From contig CM066290.1 in assembly GCA_033816765.1 (NCBI GenBank), forward strand, positions 3,100,001 through 3,164,000: a DNA stretch of 64,000 bases, in the 5' to 3' direction. Shown one piece after another: positions 51,454 through 63,725 of this stretch. Both the position numbers and the translations under genes were made by a program. The notes below the pieces were generated by a model, which did not search any database, was not told where the DNA came from, and was given only the letters and a program-made list of their open reading frames with translations. Each line of letters opens with the position of its first letter. The stretch's first letter is position 1. The DNA is from Nothopassalora personata. Taxonomy: Eukaryota > Ascomycota > Dothideomycetes > Mycosphaerellales > Mycosphaerellaceae.

Positions 51454-52068
51454 CTATCCCCCTTCTAGCTTAGCTTCGTCCCGAAGCTTATAAATAATCG
51501 GTTGTCCCTACCTTCCTACTTATTATACTCGAAGATAACTTCTTATACTCTTCGTAACATCTATCTCTCGTAAGAAATTGCGTAATACGGTATTAAAATA
51601 GCTCCCTATACCGCCTATCGAAACGCCCGTCCTAAGAAGGACTTCCCTAAGCCGAAATGCATCGTTTATCCTCGCTCCGGCCGCTACTCCGAGTATATCC
51701 GTAAAGGATACTCGGGGTACGACGTAACTATCTCGAATCCCTAGTAGATAAGGCTACGCGAGTCCCGCGATAAGCTCCGTCGCGAACTTATTAAGGTAGA
51801 AGAGGAGGAGGCGGAATTGTTTTATAAGTTCTCCGAGTTATCGTCCCTTCTAGCTATTATGTCTCGTTCTAGGGCTAGTCTTAAAGGAGAGATAAGTCAA
51901 GTTACGTAGCGGTATTCTTTAGAGAGGCTAAAGTAAGCTAAGCGAAGATAAATAATTAGAGTAAGAGTTATATTCCAATTAGTAAGATAGTAACATAAGT
52001 TAAACGTATTAGAACTATAAGGGATTCTTAGCGTTTCTAAATACAAAGGAGACTCGTATACTATCCGG
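51454..52068 (+). pseudogene. RIP-mutated Cys-rich coiled-coil ORF of element A
   Basis: Beside the inverted LTR's purine tract, a plus-strand frame (about 51604-52000) reads FPKPKCIVYPRSGRYSEYIR, then GYSGYDVTISNP, two TAG stops, and RLRESRDKLRRELIKVEEEE. Its pattern SGxCSxC....C.xCD is that of the intact antisense protein of element E (SSGKCSHC..NCRSCDAK then WKKLGDQRRKLLSDL), with four Cys codons TGC now TAC (Tyr) and Gln codons now TAG. This is what RIP at CpA/TpG would do. The element is cut off at 52068 by element B. Confidence 0.8.
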
Positions 52069-52076
52069 TGTTAGGC
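52069..52076 (-). repeat. Left fragment of element B LTR (interrupted by E)
   Basis: TGTTAGGC, the outer end of an LTR in reverse orientation. Its last five bases TAGGC are the target site duplicated by element E. The LTR continues at 54536. Confidence 0.75.
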
Positions 52077-52393
52077 TGTTACGGTTTAGTTCGCAGAGAG
52101 GGGACAACCAATCATCCAGGCAGCAAGGCAAGGATCAGAACACGTGACCAAGGGATCTGAGGGATCTGTGGGATCTGTCGAACAGATCCGCAGAGCAGGA
52201 CAGATCTCGCGAGACCACGCCAAGACATGGCACTATATAGACGACGCTCTTTTGCAAGTAGATAGGAGCCTCGTGCTCAACTCATTTCAAGTATACACCA
52301 TATACTGTTTGGGACCACTACCTTCTCAACGAGTCAGAGACATCACTGCAAAGATCCAAGCCCAGTTGGGATAACGTACAGCGGTTCCTAACA
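52077..52393 (+). repeat. 5' LTR of element E
   Basis: 317 bp, TG..CA ends. It contains an E-box-type CACGTGACC at about 52141-52149, the nested repeats GGGATCTG, a palindromic GATCTGTCGAACAGATC, and a TATA box (CACTATATAGACG) near 52231-52243, which is the likely promoter for genomic RNA. Confidence 0.95.
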
Positions 52394-52425
52394 ACTTTGA
52401 GCACCACCACCAGGGCCCTTTGCAT

Positions 52426-53418
52426 ATGTCTGGGAGAGACGCTACCCGGAGTCCGTCACGACAACAGCCACAGTCAACTGGCATCACGGAACGAATGAGC
52501 GAAATGTCGATTACAGGAAGCAGCAAGAACAACAACACTCCTATGGGTATGCTGAACCCATTGGACCACCACCGTGCACCTAAGGTGTCTACGCCGGAGA
52601 CGTTCGACGGGACCAAGGACAAACTGGAGGCTTTTCAACTGCAGGTTCAGTTGTACCTTCACTTCAACGCACACCAGTTTCAAGGCGAGGCTTCTAAAGT
52701 CTTGTACGCCGCATCCTTCCTACGAGGAAAAGCAGCTAGAGGATTCCGACCATACCTCAAGGACTGGCTACACAACCAGGGCGAGGGAGAAACACCGAAA
52801 ACGGAAACTCGAAAAATTTTCCACGACTACGACGAGTTTGAGACGAAACTCGATGATCTATACGGGATACCAAATGAGGAGGTATACGCCGACCGACATA
52901 TCCGACAACTTCGACAGACTACTTCTGTAGCGCTGTACGCCTCAGAATTCCAAGGATATGCCGCCGACCTGGAATGGAACGACGCAGCTTTGCGATCGCA
53001 GTTCTACCTCGGGCTGAAAGACAACGTCAAAGCCGAACTATCCCGAAACGCCAGCGTCGTTACGCTAGGGGCGATGATCAAGGCAGCAAAGGAGATCGAC
53101 GAAAGGCTCCAGGAGTTGAGGTACGACCGACACGTACAGCCTGGATACCAGAGACCCGCCGCGGGCGGAAGAGGGGGCTTCAAGGCCAGAAGTCAGGACC
53201 CTAATGGTTACGGAGACCCAATGGAATTGGACGTAACGGAACGTAGGACAGGAAGGGGGCTGAAGAGCAAAGGTTCCACCTGCTACGTATGTGGCGAGCA
53301 AGGCCACTTTGCAAGAAACTGCAAGAAGAAGAACATGGTTAGCCGCGAGTTCAACGCAATGATTCGCGAAGAGAATACATGCCAGGAATGCGAGAACTTC
53401 TTCTCGAAATCTGCCTAG
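52426..53418 (+). CDS. Gag protein of element E (retrotransposon capsid with CCHC knuckle)
   Basis: 330 aa from the ATG at 52426. Residues about 55-230 are a Ty3/gypsy-type Gag capsid domain (FDGTKDKLEAFQLQVQLYL, ASFLRGKAARGFRPYLKDW, LYASEFQGYAADLEWNDAAL, FYLGLKDNVKAEL). A single zinc knuckle CYVCGEQGHFARNC (CX2CX4HX4C) follows near residue 286 for RNA packaging. The C-terminus is short (ECENFFSKSA). The stop TAG lies at 53416-53418 and no pol follows in any frame. Gag similarity is to Ty3/gypsy rather than Ty1/copia. The protein should form particles that package element RNA, with enzymes supplied by another element. Confidence 0.93.
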   Translation: MSGRDATRSPSRQQPQSTGITERMSEMSITGSSKNNNTPMGMLNPLDHHRAPKVSTPETFDGTKDKLEAFQLQVQLYLHFNAHQFQGEASKVLYAASFLRGKAARGFRPYLKDWLHNQGEGETPKTETRKIFHDYDEFETKLDDLYGIPNEEVYADRHIRQLRQTTSVALYASEFQGYAADLEWNDAALRSQFYLGLKDNVKAELSRNASVVTLGAMIKAAKEIDERLQELRYDRHVQPGYQRPAAGGRGGFKARSQDPNGYGDPMELDVTERRTGRGLKSKGSTCYVCGEQGHFARNCKKKNMVSREFNAMIREENTCQECENFFSKSA

Positions 53419-54137
53419 CAGAAACAACCTGAGGACAGCAAGGCATCAAACAGCGGCTTCTTGATTTGATGGCCTAGGACACAGAAGTCAACACTACGAA
53501 CGGCAAAACGGGATAGACAGGGGACGAACGACGAGTTTCCCACTGGATTAGACACCGGAACATCCAGGAAGTTCCAGAACTCGGAGTTTGCGTTTCCCTC
53601 CCAGTTACTCCAGGTAAAGGGACTGAGCATGGGACCGTCGGAAGGGTCTGGAGCGAGGAGAAGGCCGGCTCGCTCGAGGGCGCGCTCTTCTTCCTCCTCC
53701 TCCTCCATTTCACGCTCCTCGAGAGAGCGACCTTCCTCGACCTTTCGGTCCACGGCATCCAGTTGCTTGCGAAGACGCATCTCTTTCGCATGCGCCTCCA
53801 TCTCCTTCTCGAAAGCGGCAGCACGCAGGCGGCCGGCTTCCGCGAGCGCTTCCTTCGCTCGGTCAAGGTCCGAGAGCAGCTTCCTTCGTTGGTCACCAAG
53901 CTTCTTCCACTCAACCTCAGTCACTTTGGCGTCGCAGCTGCGACAGTTACTTAGGTGGCAGTGGGAGCACTTGCCCGACGAGATGTGTACGCGACACAAG
54001 AGACCCTTCTCCTTGCAGCGAGAACAGGGACGCATGGTTTCTTCGCCGAGACGGTGGATTCGATTTGCACGTCGTTTTCGTTTCTTGGTGGGGACGGCGT
54101 CAGACGCTGGAATGTTGACGGGGAAAAGAGACGACAT
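53415..54137 (-). CDS. Antisense Cys-rich coiled-coil protein carried by element E
   Basis: 240 aa, opposite to gag and convergent with it. The N-terminus is basic (TKKRKRRANRIHR). A Cys/His cluster follows (CSRCKEKGLLCRVH, then GKCSHCHLSNCRSC), which may bind zinc and nucleic acid. Residues about 85-165 are a strong coiled coil ending in a Glu run (EEREMEEEEEEERALE), and the C-terminal part includes FTWSNWEGNANSEFWNFL. The same plan (paired Cys then coiled coil with RLRKQL-type repeats) is common in fungal transposon-rich DNA, but I know of no assigned function. Its start is 76 bp from the 3' LTR, so the LTR-proximal region must act as its promoter. Two RIP-mutated homologues lie in elements A and B at the same relative place. 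Confidence 0.85.
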   Translation of the reverse strand: MSSLFPVNIPASDAVPTKKRKRRANRIHRLGEETMRPCSRCKEKGLLCRVHISSGKCSHCHLSNCRSCDAKVTEVEWKKLGDQRRKLLSDLDRAKEALAEAGRLRAAAFEKEMEAHAKEMRLRKQLDAVDRKVEEGRSLEEREMEEEEEEERALERAGLLLAPDPSDGPMLSPFTWSNWEGNANSEFWNFLDVPVSNPVGNSSFVPCLSRFAVRSVDFCVLGHQIKKPLFDALLSSGCFC

Positions 54138-54213
54138 CTCTGGTCTGAAAGAGAGGTGGGGAGGACTTTCCTTTGTAAGCTTCGGGGCGAAGCTAAGGCT
54201 AAAAGGGGGATGG

Positions 54214-54530
54214 TGTTACGGTTTAGTTCGCAGAGAGGGGACAACCAATCATCCAGGCAGCAAGGCAAGGATCAGAACACGTGACCAAGGGATCTGAGGG
54301 ATCTGTGGGATCTGTCGAACAGATCCGCAGAGCAGGACAGATCTCGCGAGACCACGCCAAGACATGGCACTATATAGACGACGCTCTTTTGCAAGTAGAT
54401 AGGAGCCTCGTGCTCAACTCATTTCAAGTATACACCATATACTGTTTGGGACCACTACCTTCTCAACGAGTCAGAGACATCACTGCAAAGATCCAAGCCC
54501 AGTTGGGATAACGTACAGCGGTTCCTAACA
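54214..54530 (+). repeat. 3' LTR of element E
   Basis: Same 317 bp as the 5' copy, with no difference found by eye, preceded by the purine tract and followed by TAGGC. Confidence 0.95.
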
Positions 54531-54535
54531 TAGGC

Positions 54536-54745: not shown

Positions 54746-55495
54746 CTATCCCCCTTCCTACTAAAACTCGTCCTCGAGTTTTCTTTCTTCTCCTATAAGT
54801 TCCTATCTTTTACTATAAGCGGCGAGTAGCTAATACGTTAGGAGCGCCGCGAACGTTAAGTACTAGGTATCGAAGCCGAGGGCCGCGAGATGCTATCCCT
54901 ATATTCTAGTTGCCGAAAGGCTAGAGTGCCTAAAGGAAGGAAGAGTCCTCGTTACGTAGTAGATATGCGCTTTAGGTATTATTCGGAGTGCGTTCGTAAG
55001 GGTGTTAAGTATAACGTAACTATTACGTAGACTAAGTAGGAGCGGCTTCGTAACTAGCGTCGAAAGCTAAAGCGAGAGCTTAATAAGGCTAAAGAGAAGG
55101 TAATAGAGGCGATGTTAAAGGTATATCGTCTTAGGAAACAGCTACGCGTTACTAAGGATAGGGAGGAAAAGGCGATAGCGAAGGATTTCGAGGATCTTCG
55201 CAGTTTGCCGAGCGTAGGTATCGATGCCTTTTCCGCGCCTTCGTCCTGTCTTCTTATTCCTAAAGGTAGCCCTAAAGAGCTAGAGGGGGTTTTCTAGATG
55301 TTGATTCCTTCCTAGGAGGACCTTTCGATAATTCCGGATAATGCCCTCTAGTTATATCCGACCCTTAAGAAAGCCGTAGTAGCTTCTTCGAGCGCTAGCC
55401 CCTCTAGTAGATAGGTGTTAGTTTCTTATAGGAGATATGTTTATATAAGTTCTTCGTTTCCCTTATTAAACCCGGTTATGTAGCTTAGTAGTTAG
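54746..55495 (+). pseudogene. RIP-mutated Cys-rich coiled-coil ORF of element B
   Basis: Plus-strand frame at about 54950-55300: YVVDMRFRYYSECVRKGVKY, NVTIT, then three TAG stops at Gln positions within TK.ERLRN.RRKLKREL, and the coiled coil NKAKEKVIEAMLKVYRLRKQ with a tail SVGIDAFSAPSSCL. It lies immediately inside the inverted LTR, as in elements A and E. Cys-to-Tyr and Gln-to-stop changes again fit RIP. Confidence 0.78.
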
Positions 55496-59097: not shown

Positions 59098-62000
59098 GCC
59101 ATCTTCTGAGCGCAACAGATGATGGTCCGACACAGGAAGTGTCACATCAGCACGAACACCATCCCCCACACGAACATGAACATCACGAAATGAGAACAGT
59201 ACAGGCATTTTCCTTGCAAGCCCGAACGAACACGCCCTCCTCCATAGAAGTAGATAAAGGACCCGAAGTCTCACATCACTTTGTGGTGGAGGGTAGGGCA
59301 AATGGAATACATGCATATACTTTTCTTGATGATGGTGCCAATTCTGAACTCGTGAACACTTCCTACGCGCACAAACACAAATTTCCCTTGTATGATATCG
59401 AACCCTTCACACTAGGCCTGGGTGATGGCTCTCAAGCACCTACTATCATCACCAAAGCCACGAATATCGAGTTGAACCTCCAAGGCCATATCGAAGTCGT
59501 CAAATGCTTGGTAACCGACACCTGCTACGACATCGTCCTTGGCCTTGGGTGGCATGCAAAGCACAGCCCACACAAGGACTGGAAACGAAGCGTGCTCACC
59601 TTCAGCGACGACGGATGCCAAGGGCATTCACTTTACAAGAACGTCAACCTGCCAGTCGTGCTCCCTGCCTCCGAACCACCTCCGACGCCGGACCCCGACT
59701 ACGACAGCCTTGAGCGGCCAGACATCAGTGACATATCGGCCTCCTCACCTGTCGAAGTCGGCGCCGAACGAGTCGAGCGCGGACGCAAGCACGACCCAGT
59801 TGACATTGAGCAAACCAGCCTCTACGAGTTGCAAAAGCTGTGCCGCACAAGAGGCGCGGAAGTGCACACCATGTGGGTCAACCCACGCGAAACGCACGCG
59901 TCGAAGAGCGCAGCAGATCCAGTCACCGCTCAGGCATTGGGTCTGCATGCTATGACAGCACGGAAAGTCATGGGCGGCAATGCCGCCTTTGCATGCGCTA
60001 TGTATGTCGAAGACGACTACCGCAGGACGCTACGCCGCCGGCAGGAACACCAAGCGGAAGTCTACGCCATGAGCGCAGCAGATTATGATGTCTTCATGGA
60101 GAAACTGCATCGCAAGGAGAAGGAGGCTGATATAACAAAGTTGCCAGCACACTATCAGCACAGAAAGGACCTCTTCTCCAAGAAAGAATCCAGCAAACTG
60201 CCTCCGCACAGGCCTGGCCTAGACCATGAGATCAAGCTGAAGAAGGACGCTAGGCCACCTTTCAAGAGGCCGTACCCTATCTCCAACAGGGAGTCTGAAG
60301 TGGTGAAAGCGTGGGTGGATGACCAGCTTGAGAAAGGCAACATCCAGCGCAGCAACTCACCAGCAGCGTCACCAGTCATCATCGTGAGGAAGCCAGGAGG
60401 CGGCCTGCGCGTGTGCATTGATTATCGCGCTCTGAACGCGATCACAGTCAAGTCCAGGTACCCCATTCCACTCATCCAAGATACCCTCAATCGGATCAGT
60501 GGCAAGAAGTACTTCACAAAACTGGATGTCATCGCGGCGTTCAATCGACTACGCATCGCTGAAGGGGATGAATGGAAAACTGCCTTCACAACGCGATATG
60601 GCCAGTTTGAATGCTTAGTAATGCCGTTTGGACTCTGCAACGCCCCTGGGACCTTTCAGTCATACATCAACGACGCCCTTCGAGAATACCTTGACGACTT
60701 TACCTCGGCGTACCTCGACGATGCCCTGATCTTCAGCGATACTCTGGAAGAACACATCGTGCACGTGGACAAGGTGATGGCCAAGCTTCAGGCAGCTGGT
60801 CTCCAGCTCGATATCGACAAGTGCGAGTTCCACGTTCAGGAGACCAAATACCTCGGACTGGTCATTGGAGCCGAGGGTATTAAGATGGACAAGGAGAAGA
60901 TTGTAGCCATCCAAGAGTGGGAGACGCCACGCAACCCAACCGATATCCTGTCATTCCTAGGCTTCTGCAACTTCTACCGCAGGTTCATTCGCAACTATTC
61001 AGGCATCGCTTATCCCATGACACAGTTGACAAAGAAAGATGTGCCATGGCTGTGGGATGACACCTGCCAAACAGCCTTCGACTGCATGAAGCAGGCGTTT
61101 GCTGAAGAGGACATAGTGCTCGCTCACTTCGTGCCAGGACGCGAAACTAAGCTCGAAACTGATGCCTCAGATTTCGTCACTGCAGCAGTCCTGTCACAGA
61201 AGGGTGAGGATGGCGTATGGCGTCCTGTCGCATTCATGTCTAAGAAGATGTCACCCCAGGAGTGCAACTACGACATCTACGACAAGGAGCTCCTTGCCAT
61301 TGTCAAAGCCTTTGAAGAATGGAAGCCTGAGCTAATTTCAGGGGACATCGACGGGGATAGCGAGGATACCGACTTCGAGAACCTCACTGATGAGAGTGGC
61401 AAGCCTATTCTCGTGTATTCAGATCACAAGAATCTCGAATGGTTCACAAGCACGAAAGTGCTCAACCGCAGACAGGCCCGCTGGTCCGAGTTCTTGTCAC
61501 AGTTCTACTTCAAGATCGTCTACATCCCTGGCAAGACCAACATCAAGCCTGACACGCTGACTCGTCGACCGCAAGATGTGCCTGCCAGCGATGAGGACCC
61601 GCGCCGACAACATCAAGAGCAAACCCTGCTGCCCGAGCACAGGTTTCTCAACATTTCACCTATGAAGATCCGCCCCGAAGGCAATGACCTTATGACAGAA
61701 ATTCGCACTGCTTATGGTGCACCAGAAATGCAACAGGCCCTACGAGAGCTGGATGCCGGAGAACCTTGTGGACTGCTACGTCGTCACCGTATGGACGACA
61801 GCGACGCAGTCGCTATAGGCGGCCTGATCTACATGAAGAATAGGTACGGCGGATACAACGTGTTCGTGCCTGATGCTCCGGATCTGCGCTTCGAGGTGTT
61901 CAAGGCCTATCACAGCACCCCTTCTGCAGGGCATCCAGGTCGAGCAAAGACCTTCGAACTGATTACGCGCGATTTCATCTGGCCCGGCCTCTCGCAGTAC

Positions 62001-63725
62001 GTCCGCAACAAGGTCTTTAAGTGCCACGAATGCCGCTCGTCCAAGCCTTCGCAGACCCAATACCCAGGCCTGCTGAAGCCCCTGCCTATTCCTTTTGAGT
62101 TATGGGACGAGATTGCTATGGACTTCGTAGTGGGACTGCCAGAGAGCACCGACTGCAATGGCGTCACATACACTAACGCTCTCACAATCACGGATCGCAC
62201 AGGCAAAGGTTGTCACATGATCCCCGTCAAGGAGATGACGGCTGAGTACATCGCCGAAGTCTTCGTGCGAGACTACTACCGCCTGCATGGTGCGCCGCTA
62301 TCCATTGTCACCGATCGAGGGAGCCAGTGGCTGTCAGCTTTCTGGCAGCGCTTCTGCGAACTAGTCGGCATAGACCACAAGCTGTCTACAGCCTTCCACC
62401 CTGAGACGGATGGGCAGTCTGAGAACACTAACAAGGAAATGGAGAAGTATCTCCGCGTCTTTATCGACTACGCACAAGGAGATTGGGTGCAGTGGCTACC
62501 CCTTGCGGAGTTTGCGAAGAACAACCACGCTACTGAAGCCACTGGTGTGTCGCCTTTCTTCGCTGAGCGAGGCCGCAATCCTCGCACAGGTAACTTTAAC
62601 GGCGATACACTGCCTAAGCGCCTCATGCCGACCAAGCAACGTCTGAGCGCTGAGGGAGCAGAGCGGTTCGCCCAGCAAATGAAGGACCTCCACGCACATC
62701 TCCATGAATGCTTGCGTTACGACCAAGCCCTGCAAGCTGATAATGCCAACATGCACCGCACGGTGCCGCCACGATACGAGCCAGGCGACCATGTCTACAT
62801 CAACACCAAGAACTGGAAGTCATCACGCCCAGCGAAGAAGCTCGACGTCAAGTGGTTTGGACCAGTGACTGTCACTACCGCACTCGGTGAGAATGCTTAC
62901 AGTGTTGCCCTTCCAGATAAGATCCGCGTACACAACTCTTTCCACTCAAATCTCCTCAGACTCGCAGATCCGGAAGATGATGCGAGGCCGCCACCGATCG
63001 AAGTCACGGACGAGACCGGCAACACGTTCAAGACCTGGGAGGTTGAGCGTATCCTGGACTCCAAACCGAAGGGCAGAGGCATTACCATGCTAGTGAAATG
63101 GAAAGGTTACTTGGACAGTGAGTCTACTTGGGAGCCCGCGAGCGTAGTGTGCAAAGATGCACCGAAGGCAGTCGCAGACTTCAAGCATAACAACCCAACC
63201 AAGTCCATACCGGTCAACTTTCATCCGCCACCTGGTTGGATCCCAAATGAAACGTTGCGCGATATGAGACCTGAAGCAGATGTACACATTATGGATCTGG
63301 CACCTCAGGTAACCACAGTAGCACGACCGCCCTCTGTCGGCACCGGTGCTGTGGCTCTTCCTGTTGGTGACCACACGCCTTCTAATGTTGCTGTGGGCAA
63401 TAGCGAAGGGGTTTCGGTGCCTGCTTCTAATGCAACGACGGATACAACGTCGACGGACGAAGCAATCGAGGCCGCTCAGATGGAGCTGCTTGATGAAACG
63501 GATGGTATGGAGGATGATGAAGCCTTCGCATATGCACTAAGGAAGATTCAAGGTCACACGCTTCGAGACGAAGGTGTTTTGAGGGGGGGGTGGTGTCACG
63601 GCCGCTCCGCAAGTGAAGGATTTGGGATGGATCACGTGACCTCAGAGCACGTGACCAGGATGACTCAGCCCGGCCCGAAGCCGACCCGCGACACCTCGGC
63701 CCTTAAGTATAGGCCTCGACCTTAG
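59052..63725 (+). CDS. Pol polyprotein of element D with C-terminal chromodomain
   Basis: Frame open from 59052 to 63725, -1 relative to gag. It has no early ATG (first at about 59190), so expression by -1 frameshifting near the gag stop is likely. Counting from 59139 as residue 1, it holds a His-rich start, protease FLDDGANSEL (about 62), reverse transcriptase with YLDD at about 525, RNase H (ETDASDFVTAAVLSQ, about 672) and a His-His-Cys-Cys finger (AYHSTPSAGHPG..CHEC, about 920). The integrase core Asp-Asp-Glu lies in AMDFVVGLPES, VTDRGSQW and DGQSENTNKEM, and the chromodomain EVERIL..LVKWKGYLDSESTWEP is at about 1300. The chromodomain steers integration to marked chromatin. The last 44 codons run into the 3' LTR. 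Confidence 0.95.
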   Translation, partial: QRHDCCCSTTGGKRLGHLLSATDDGPTQEVSHQHEHHPPHEHEHHEMRTVQAFSLQARTNTPSSIEVDKGPEVSHHFVVEGRANGIHAYTFLDDGANSELVNTSYAHKHKFPLYDIEPFTLGLGDGSQAPTIITKATNIELNLQGHIEVVKCLVTDTCYDIVLGLGWHAKHSPHKDWKRSVLTFSDDGCQGHSLYKNVNLPVVLPASEPPPTPDPDYDSLERPDISDISASSPVEVGAERVERGRKHDPVDIEQTSLYELQKLCRTRGAEVHTMWVNPRETHASKSAADPVTAQALGLHAMTARKVMGGNAAFACAMYVEDDYRRTLRRRQEHQAEVYAMSAADYDVFMEKLHRKEKEADITKLPAHYQHRKDLFSKKESSKLPPHRPGLDHEIKLKKDARPPFKRPYPISNRESEVVKAWVDDQLEKGNIQRSNSPAASPVIIVRKPGGGLRVCIDYRALNAITVKSRYPIPLIQDTLNRISGKKYFTKLDVIAAFNRLRIAEGDEWKTAFTTRYGQFECLVMPFGLCNAPGTFQSYINDALREYLDDFTSAYLDDALIFSDTLEEHIVHVDKVMAKLQAAGLQLDIDKCEFHVQETKYLGLVIGAEGIKMDKEKIVAIQEWETPRNPTDILSFLGFCNFYRRFIRNYSGIAYPMTQLTKKDVPWLWDDTCQTAFDCMKQAFAEEDIVLAHFVPGRETKLETDASDFVTAAVLSQKGEDGVWRPVAFMSKKMSPQECNYDIYDKELLAIVKAFEEWKPELISGDIDGDSEDTDFENLTDESGKPILVYSDHKNLEWFTSTKVLNRRQARWSEFLSQFYFKIVYIPGKTNIKPDTLTRRPQDVPASDEDPRRQHQEQTLLPEHRFLNISPMKIRPEGNDLMTEIRTAYGAPEMQQALRELDAGEPCGLLRRHRMDDSDAVAIGGLIYMKNRYGGYNVFVPDAPDLRFEVFKAYHSTPSAGHPGRAKTFELITRDFIWPGLSQYVRNKVFKCHECRSSKPSQTQYPGLLKPLPIPFELWDEIAMDFVVGLPESTDCNGVTYTNALTITDRTGKGCHMIPVKEMTAEYIAEVFVRDYYRLHGAPLSIVTDRGSQWLSAFWQRFCELVGIDHKLSTAFHPETDGQSENTNKEMEKYLRVFIDYAQGDWVQWLPLAEFAKNNHATEATGVSPFFAERGRNPRTGNFNGDTLPKRLMPTKQRLSAEGAERFAQQMKDLHAHLHECLRYDQALQADNANMHRTVPPRYEPGDHVYINTKNWKSSRPAKKLDVKWFGPVTVTTALGENAYSVALPDKIRVHNSFHSNLLRLADPEDDARPPPIEVTDETGNTFKTWEVERILDSKPKGRGITMLVKWKGYLDSESTWEPASVVCKDAPKAVADFKHNNPTKSIPVNFHPPPGWIPNETLRDMRPEADVHIMDLAPQVTTVARPPSVGTGAVALPVGDHTPSNVAVGNSEGVSVPASNATTDTTSTDEAIEAAQMELLDETDGMEDDEAFAYALRKIQGHTLRDEGVLRGGWCHGRSASEGFGMDHVTSEHVTRMTQPGPKPTRDTSALKYRPRP

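Follow-up and report, generated by a model that had tools for sequence, protein, structure and literature searches.

A gag-only retrotransposon family of the fungus Nothopassalora personata with one gag module, many antisense genes and candidate operator arrays in U3

The antisense gene brtn of the retrotransposon Boty was reportedly described by Zhao et al. (2011, Virology). Boty, from Botrytis cinerea, is a Ty3/gypsy element with a chromodomain in which brtn forms an extra gene, antisense, between pol and the 3′ long terminal repeat (LTR) [PMC7264820, PMC8365987, PMC4227169, PMC5987419]. In plants, TR-GAG elements consist of two LTRs around a single intact gag and are mobile in trans [PMC9784723], while antisense open reading frames (aORFs) are found between pol and the 3′ LTR of Grande (gene23), RIRE2, and Retand; the accessible text describes their function as unknown and suggests a nuclear role [PMC7264820]. 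A survey of fungal LTR elements does not, in its accessible sections, mention antisense genes [PMC3248453]. Here, we consider a window of 64,000 nucleotides from the ascomycete Nothopassalora personata (assembly GCA_033816765.1, contig CM066290.1, positions 3,100,001 to 3,164,000, forward strand; positions below are those of the window). At 52077-54530 it holds a complete LTR element of 2,454 bp, in which gag is kept, pol is absent, and an aORF is intact.

In the window element, gag is intact between two LTRs and pol is lacking, as the descriptions of TR-GAG have it; here, however, a second, antisense gene is kept under selection, the host is a fungus, and modules appear to be exchanged among 13 types. 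As with brtn, the aORF adjoins the 3′ LTR, and pol-bearing families in this ascomycete share the Boty layout. In contrast to Boty as described, the window element and its kin have no pol, many types of antisense gene occur per gag, and U3 arrays are matched to them; the aORF and BRTN are likened by layout only. The plant aORFs likewise lie next to the 3′ LTR, as between pol and the 3′ LTR in the pol-bearing families here, but they are in pol-bearing families, and matched promoter arrays are not described for them in the accessible text [PMC7264820]. Antisense genes (brtn) and gag-only elements (TR-GAG) are each known separately, and their combination appears new. In the open-licence literature, with subscription journals mostly outside it, we found no report of a gag-only element with an antisense gene, of many antisense-gene types per gag, or of matched U3 arrays.

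On balance, we favor the view that this is a gag-only Ty3/gypsy-type element whose gene, antisense between gag and the 3′ LTR, encodes a predicted dimeric Zn2Cys6-like DNA-binding regulator, with the repeat array in its own U3 as the likely target. A wider proposal, which we hold tentatively and place just short of an even chance, is that a community of fungal LTR retrotransposons runs on private circuits. Each lineage's antisense Zn2Cys6-type regulator, expressed from the 3′ LTR, would read its own U3 operator array, and at least 13 swappable regulator–operator cassettes would have been joined to one recent gag module, such that the shell is common and the switch private.

The genome searched comprises 54.5 Mb in 40 contigs. 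From 1,048 first-look candidates for gag, 121 copies were scored, all of them 98-100% identical and 120 free of stops. When gag and aORF hit positions were matched, an aORF was found on the opposite strand within 1 kb downstream of gag in 117 of the 121 (four were without an assigned aORF), and at this distance there is no room for pol. The identical layout in these 117 copies rules out that the window element is a single deletion copy. Hence, the retention of gag and an antisense gene without pol is a family trait, which supports the reading of the initial annotation, and the opposite outcome, in which most copies carry pol, fails. Behind the 117 copies stand 13 aORF types (26, 26, 14, 12, 12, 7, 6, 5, 3, 2, 2, 1, and 1 copies), while 19 of the 136 aORF hits of these types had no gag among the 121. 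The aORF match is stop-free in 113 of the 117; the other four, all of the 186-aa type, have one TAG. The window-type aORF (240/241 aa) is present in 14 copies with 100% identity and no stops, which argues against a chance ORF, and each copy is part of an element that matches the one in the window over its full length, LTRs included. Of the window LTR, 40 copies were scored among 820 candidates.

An LTR pair was found at 26 of the 30 loci fetched with gag DNA, and 14 of these pairs are 100% identical. The four loci that gave no pair (L017, L018, L019, and L029) were left out; L018 and L019 are parts of one head-to-tail array. L029 (G000:C4:1625416) is a rearranged copy in which the second LTR match is in the opposite orientation to gag. 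A head-to-tail array of six gag–aORF units with a spacing of 2,056 bp is located at G000:C12:1355698-1367583, and two window-type elements stand head-to-tail with one LTR in common at G000:C8:1779049-1783639.

What the initial annotation did not see is that one gag is common to many antisense genes, and that U3 arrays are matched to these genes. Across 11 types (types '203' and '206' were left out of the comparison), gag DNA is 99.1-100% identical, whereas the aORF proteins are 18-64% identical. Thus, L024 and L023 have 100.0% identical gag sequences and aORFs with 25% identity, and for L020 and L037 the figures are 100.0% and 22%. Since the gag identity is at the DNA level, protein selection alone is ruled out as its source. 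Identity between types begins at 52181-52218, shortly before the TATA-like box (52234), and extends to 53473-53507, just past gag. These limits delineate two modules, a 5′ module with R, U5, leader, and gag, and a 3′ module with the aORF and U3; a near-invariant 5′ module is joined to at least 13 types of 3′ module. In six of nine types the boundary falls between gag and the aORF, and in L024 and L036 it lies a little way into the aORF. The aORF of the window type crosses the boundary, and the last ~30 residues are read from the gag module; relatives of the window aORF align only to residue 208-209, and P0001 has no tail. In nine types, 73-103 bp separate the aORF start codon from the LTR. Module products of this kind would be expected from strand transfer between co-packaged RNAs, as the 5′ and 3′ ends of the copy then come from different RNAs.

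The window element has paired LTRs, a target-site duplication, a polypurine tract, and a gypsy-type gag, as expected for a Ty3/gypsy LTR element, and its parts are as follows.

52072..52076, no strand: target-site duplication TAGGC, left copy (sequence read)
52077..52393, + strand: 5′ LTR, 317 bp, 100% identical to the 3′ LTR (LTR comparison)
52152..52208, + strand: U3 array of GGGATCTG/GGATCTGT repeats with dyad GGATCTGTCGAACAGATCC (dyad core 52171-52188); candidate operator, binding predicted
52234..52240, + strand: TATA-like box; the block common to the types starts just upstream, at 52181-52218
52273..52280, + strand: GTGCTCAA, complementary to the primer-binding site; predicted to lie near the RNA 5′ end (putative self-priming)
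52397..52404, + strand: putative primer-binding site core TTGAGCAC
52426..53418, + strand: gag, 330 aa, capsid domain and CCHC knuckle (ORF, Pfam and PDB matches)
53473..53507, no strand: module boundary, the range where the block common to other types stops (alignment between types)
53415..54137, − strand: aORF, 240 aa; residues to ~209 align with relatives, the remainder is read from the gag module
53934..54026, − strand: Zn2Cys6-like region, aORF Cys38 to Cys68
53670..53945, − strand: predicted coiled coil, aORF residues 65-156 (structure model)
54201..54213, + strand: polypurine tract AAAAGGGGGATGG; similar tract in pol-bearing relatives
54214..54530, + strand: 3′ LTR; its U3 lies upstream of the aORF start, with a gap of 76 bp
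54289..54345, + strand: U3 array of the 3′ LTR, dyad core 54308-54325
54531..54535, no strand: target-site duplication TAGGC, right copy

The gag product matches Pfam Retrotrans_gag (8.9e-11) and zf-CCHC (2.1e-6), with Ty3_capsid below the cut-off, and the PEG10 capsid structure 7lga (1.5e-10); it is 40% identical to gag of one pol-bearing gypsy element. The ORF list, Pfam, and a scan of the window revealed no pol-like ORF between the LTRs, and a scan of the window for transfer RNAs gave none. The element has a TA/AT of 0.84, compared with 1.51 and 1.65 for the flanking 2-kb bins and 0.4-0.75 for most other window DNA. The element is therefore much less decayed by mutation of the repeat-induced point mutation (RIP) type than its strongly decayed surroundings, and hence young. 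In all, the identical 317-bp LTRs, the 5-bp duplication, the intact gag with its knuckle, the missing pol, the intact Cys-rich coiled-coil ORF on the opposite strand, and the recent origin read from the letters by the initial annotation have held up.

Turning to the antisense protein, six Cys residues are invariant in all 19 aORF sequences, following a basic stretch and preceding a coiled coil, and their spacing is Zn2Cys6-like. Zn2Cys6 clusters have the spacing C-x2-C-x6-C-x5..12-C-x2-C-x6..8-C, to which the window aORF conforms (x2, x6, x8, x2, and x7); the first loop is longer in types L020, L036, L030, L073, and L075. Residues 65-156 of the window aORF form one predicted helix, with block predicted local distance difference test (pLDDT) scores of 90-98 over residues 71-150. 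A profile of the Cys region searched against the PDB gave Zn2Cys6 proteins as five of nine matches up to E=10 (LAC9 at 0.047, LEU3 twice, GAL4, and Cep3), and Pfam Zn_clus is the commonest weak match, in 13 of 17 aORF members (best E 0.0048). The full-length profile mostly gave coiled-coil matches, and protein database searches with the aORF yielded little, three matches in one and one in another. The Gal4-type factors named above resemble the aORF in their six-Cys spacing, basic residues, and coiled coil after the cluster; they differ in that the aORF has no significant sequence match, has a longer first loop in some types, and is retrotransposon-encoded and antisense. In fungi, a Zn2Cys6-like region together with a coiled coil points to transcription factors.

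The ratio of nonsynonymous to synonymous substitution rates (dN/dS) is 0.13-0.24 in six aORF pairs, an approximate value as dS is 1.4-2.7; four of the ten pairs were saturated and left out. These ratios show that the predicted aORF protein is under purifying selection. Together with conservation across types and the six invariant Cys residues, they rule out a chance antisense ORF. A lack of conservation of this ORF, which would have told against the initial annotation, is not what is seen, since it is present in the 13 types and in the pol-bearing relatives as well. Among the roles suggested there (nucleic-acid binding, particle assembly, and control of the sense RNA), the aORF sequence fits DNA binding best.

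Each type has a U3 of its own, and most U3s carry private short repeats or dyads upstream of the core promoter. The array units are GGGATCTG and GGATCTGTCGAACAGATCC in the window, TGCTCTCTCGAGAGAGCA in L012, CTGGTCGACCGACCAG in L037, and CAGACCGATCAGATCGGTCTG in L073, while the U3 of L023 has GACGAGCAG repeated many times. Of 17 families, 12 exceed every one of 500 shuffles in repeated 7-mers, and in 15 at most 10 of the 500 shuffles reach the observed level (counts for L076 and L077 are inflated by duplicated U3 pieces). The 18-base dyad core of the window has 40 occurrences genome-wide, each within one of the 40 LTR copies. Moreover, within single elements, the U3s of the two LTRs differ by 16 (L023), 24 (L030), 16 (L031), and 32 bp (L038), all multiples of 8, the repeat-unit length, which indicates that the arrays expand and contract; L083, whose LTR is in the wrong orientation, was left out. 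A further group with an array (GATCAG/GCTCAG) comprises L086 (G000:C25:33600-34350) and 19 matches with a 207-aa frame; its aORF is intact and its core promoter is that of the gag-only elements, its U5 is different, and none of the 121 gags is nearby.

Does the array follow the antisense gene? The aORF type and the U3 type agree in all 26 elements checked. The closest relatives of the window aORF are decayed pol-bearing copies with 56-62% identity, and pol lies beside the aORF in 16 of 16. GGATCT/AGATCC is present four times in the window U3, not at all in 16 other families, and 2-5 times in each of the 14 readable U3s of these relatives (16 were examined; L060 and L064 have no readable U3). 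Two of the 14 have just two copies, a number reached by 9 and 18 of 300 shuffles. When the U3s of four relatives were aligned to that of the window, BLAST found little beyond the GGATCT motifs and the LTR tip. The second case is the relic L085, with an aORF that is 75% identical to that of L023 and 50% to that of L011. Its U3 has 10 copies of the L023 unit, which is found in no other family, yet its first 31 bases are L011-like. Both cases, the window-type relatives and L085, say yes. In addition, two aORF clades differ in motif, with GATC present at least three times in 10 of 13 versus 0 of 4 (p=0.015), a comparison picked after looking.

Several observations weigh against a dedicated regulator and operator. 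With respect to the protein, the Cys region is modelled poorly (pLDDT 58-70), and no single Zn2Cys6 match is significant, including the best in the PDB (0.047) and in Pfam (0.0048). The window aORF scores 9.8 bits against the curated Zn_clus cut-off of 21, DUF5651 outscores Zn_clus in 4 of 17 members (best 1.9e-6), and Foldseek returned no match for the window aORF model. With respect to the arrays, the 7-mer excess is weak in L011 (26/500) and L020 (57/500), and the repeats of two gene-free control LTRs were reached by 45 and 9 of 500 shuffles, so that one control equals the weaker families; the longest dyads exceed shuffles (at most 4/200) in only 7 of 17 families. The correlation between aORF identity and U3 array similarity is weak (Mantel test; cross-class r=0.25, p=0.03; all pairs r=0.20, p=0.02), and distal U3 correlates about equally over all pairs, though not across classes. 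The dyad core of the window is also present in L076, whose aORF has just 35% identity to that of the window. GGATCT contains neither CpA nor TpG and would therefore be spared by RIP-type decay, and adjacency alone could hold gene and array together.

In the mechanism that we propose, dimers of the aORF protein would bind the array. The copy of the array in the 5′ LTR is upstream of the gag promoter, where the protein could control gag RNA, and the copy in the 3′ LTR is upstream of the aORF, where the protein could control its own antisense promoter. With the array upstream of both genes, one protein could set the sense output as well as its own level, and it might act as an activator or as an anti-silencer. 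A private regulator–array pair might free a type from regulation by rivals, or from host silencing aimed at a common site. Reverse transcriptase and integrase would be supplied in trans by pol-bearing families, the 5′ end of the gag-only RNA would act as its own primer, and template switching between co-packaged RNAs would join new aORF–U3 cassettes to the successful gag module. Human T-cell leukemia virus type 1 has a gene, HBZ, that is transcribed antisense from the 3′ LTR and encodes a protein acting on transcription from the LTR; HBZ is a bZIP protein of a retrovirus, and no homology is implied. If the proposal is true, an element-encoded regulator–operator pair is added to the known cargo of LTR retrotransposons, a set of orthogonal regulator–operator pairs becomes available, and retrotransposons can evolve by swapping whole 5′ and 3′ modules. 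According to the accessible text of PMC7264820, it is unknown what antisense genes do in LTR retrotransposons, and one genome here offers many diverged versions of such a gene. As many diverged aORFs are carried on the same gag, each beside a candidate target array, the question of their function becomes directly testable.

The VANC proteins of Arabidopsis VANDAL elements appear to be the best working parallel. According to the available text, these element-encoded proteins diverge fast, and their targets are short motifs, often in tandem repeats that vary between related elements [PMC5735166]. Here too, element-specific repeat arrays are located in the element's own non-coding DNA (two of 17 families are weak). 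VANDALs differ in being DNA transposons with other protein domains, and binding has been demonstrated for VANC while here it is predicted. No VANC-type domain was among the Pfam families matched by the aORFs; no VANC sequence was compared. This parallel raises the possibility that the aORF protein is not a classical transcription factor and instead binds the U3 array so as to lift or prevent silencing of its own type by the host, as VANC does for VANDAL. The type-specific arrays and their changes by 8-bp multiples between the LTRs of one element would agree with this, as would the differing tandem repeats of related VANDALs reported in the text cited. The Zn2Cys6-like region and coiled coil speak for transcription factors instead, and we regard anti-silencing as unlikely.

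An accessory function for the aORF product is, in our judgment, about as doubtful. It would serve as a structural, packaging, or nuclear-import helper, the arrays would serve host factors, and aORF and U3 would keep together merely as neighbours. The weak correlation noted above leans this way, and nuclear accessory roles have been proposed for plant antisense ORFs, as the accessible text has it [PMC7264820]. A packaging helper should adapt to gag, yet 13 aORF types occur on one gag; and in L085 the array motif goes with the aORF, whereas the U3 start does not.

The regulator that we favor has homologs in pol-bearing elements. In a search for pol, 150 of 2,094 candidates were scored. Six pol-bearing gypsy families with this LTR type were examined (a family with a 1,660-aa frame was not among them), and in all six a homologous and open aORF lies between pol and the 3′ LTR (L070, L071, L075, L076, L077, and L078). 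L069, a further copy of the L070 family with gag and pol, has stops in the aORF stretch read. For a family with a 1,153-aa frame, an aORF lies ~2 kb away at nine of nine listed pol positions; the stretch read in each of two other gypsy families (1,375 and 1,707 aa) contained no aORF of this kind. The L069 and L071 families have gags with 98.0% identity over 971 nt, 99.5% identity in R-U5, and 38% identity between aORFs, which is the same modularity. The pol-bearing kin have a gag-pol with a chromodomain, and their LTR start and polypurine tract are similar to those of the gag-only elements. These families are likely the source of enzymes for the gag-only elements, acting in trans.

In the gag-only elements, TTGAGCAC follows directly after the LTR. 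It is complementary to GTGCTCAA, which starts at 52273, 39 bp downstream of the TATA-like box. The only pol-bearing leader read, that of L074, has TTGAACGC, complementary to GCGTTCAA in the L074 LTR. This paired change on both sides suggests self-priming that has been kept separately in both groups. Tf1 is a self-priming element, and the complementarity suggests that the gag-only RNA primes itself in the manner of Tf1.

The position of the aORF, the same in the pol-bearing relatives, would also be expected if the window family were an ordinary derivative. In that case, pol-bearing ancestors would have lost pol and left the aORF behind as a passive remnant, and a single recent burst, together with gene conversion, would account for the uniform gag. 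Homology-driven exchange would, in addition, make the shared block stop where inter-type homology stops, as it does at 53473-53507. We consider this history improbable: the aORF is kept in 117 of the 121 scored gag copies, purifying selection acts also between gag-only types, and gag conversion alone does not explain the differing private arrays. It is very improbable that regulation or silencing of the sense RNA is the work of the antisense transcript itself and that the protein hardly matters: antisense transcripts of LTR elements can, according to the available text, act via double-stranded RNA [PMC7264820], and gag and the aORF of the window converge with a 4-base overlap, but the six invariant Cys residues and the dN/dS values show selection on the protein, and the two ORFs do not overlap in eight of nine types compared.

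Decayed relatives of these antisense genes are found in several settings. The window element is nested among older, RIP-like decayed elements, and decayed relics of other aORFs of the same family flank it at 51490-51843 and 54860-55201 (+ strand). At G000:C1:5714134-5776192, decayed aORF copies recur every ~10.78 kb, three per strand, in a large inverted tandem array. Fourteen decayed L020-type aORFs of equal score are located on small contigs and at one contig start (G000 C9:5367, C20, C21, C30, C31, C33, C34, C39, and C40), and are perhaps subtelomeric repeats. Among 27 gag relatives, the only named organism is Hortaea werneckii (P0020, 74% identity over 57% of the query). Finally, window positions 59280-63137 (+ strand) hold a pol-like stretch that is 37% identical to L069 pol, in DNA without RIP-like bias, and is probably part of another gypsy element.

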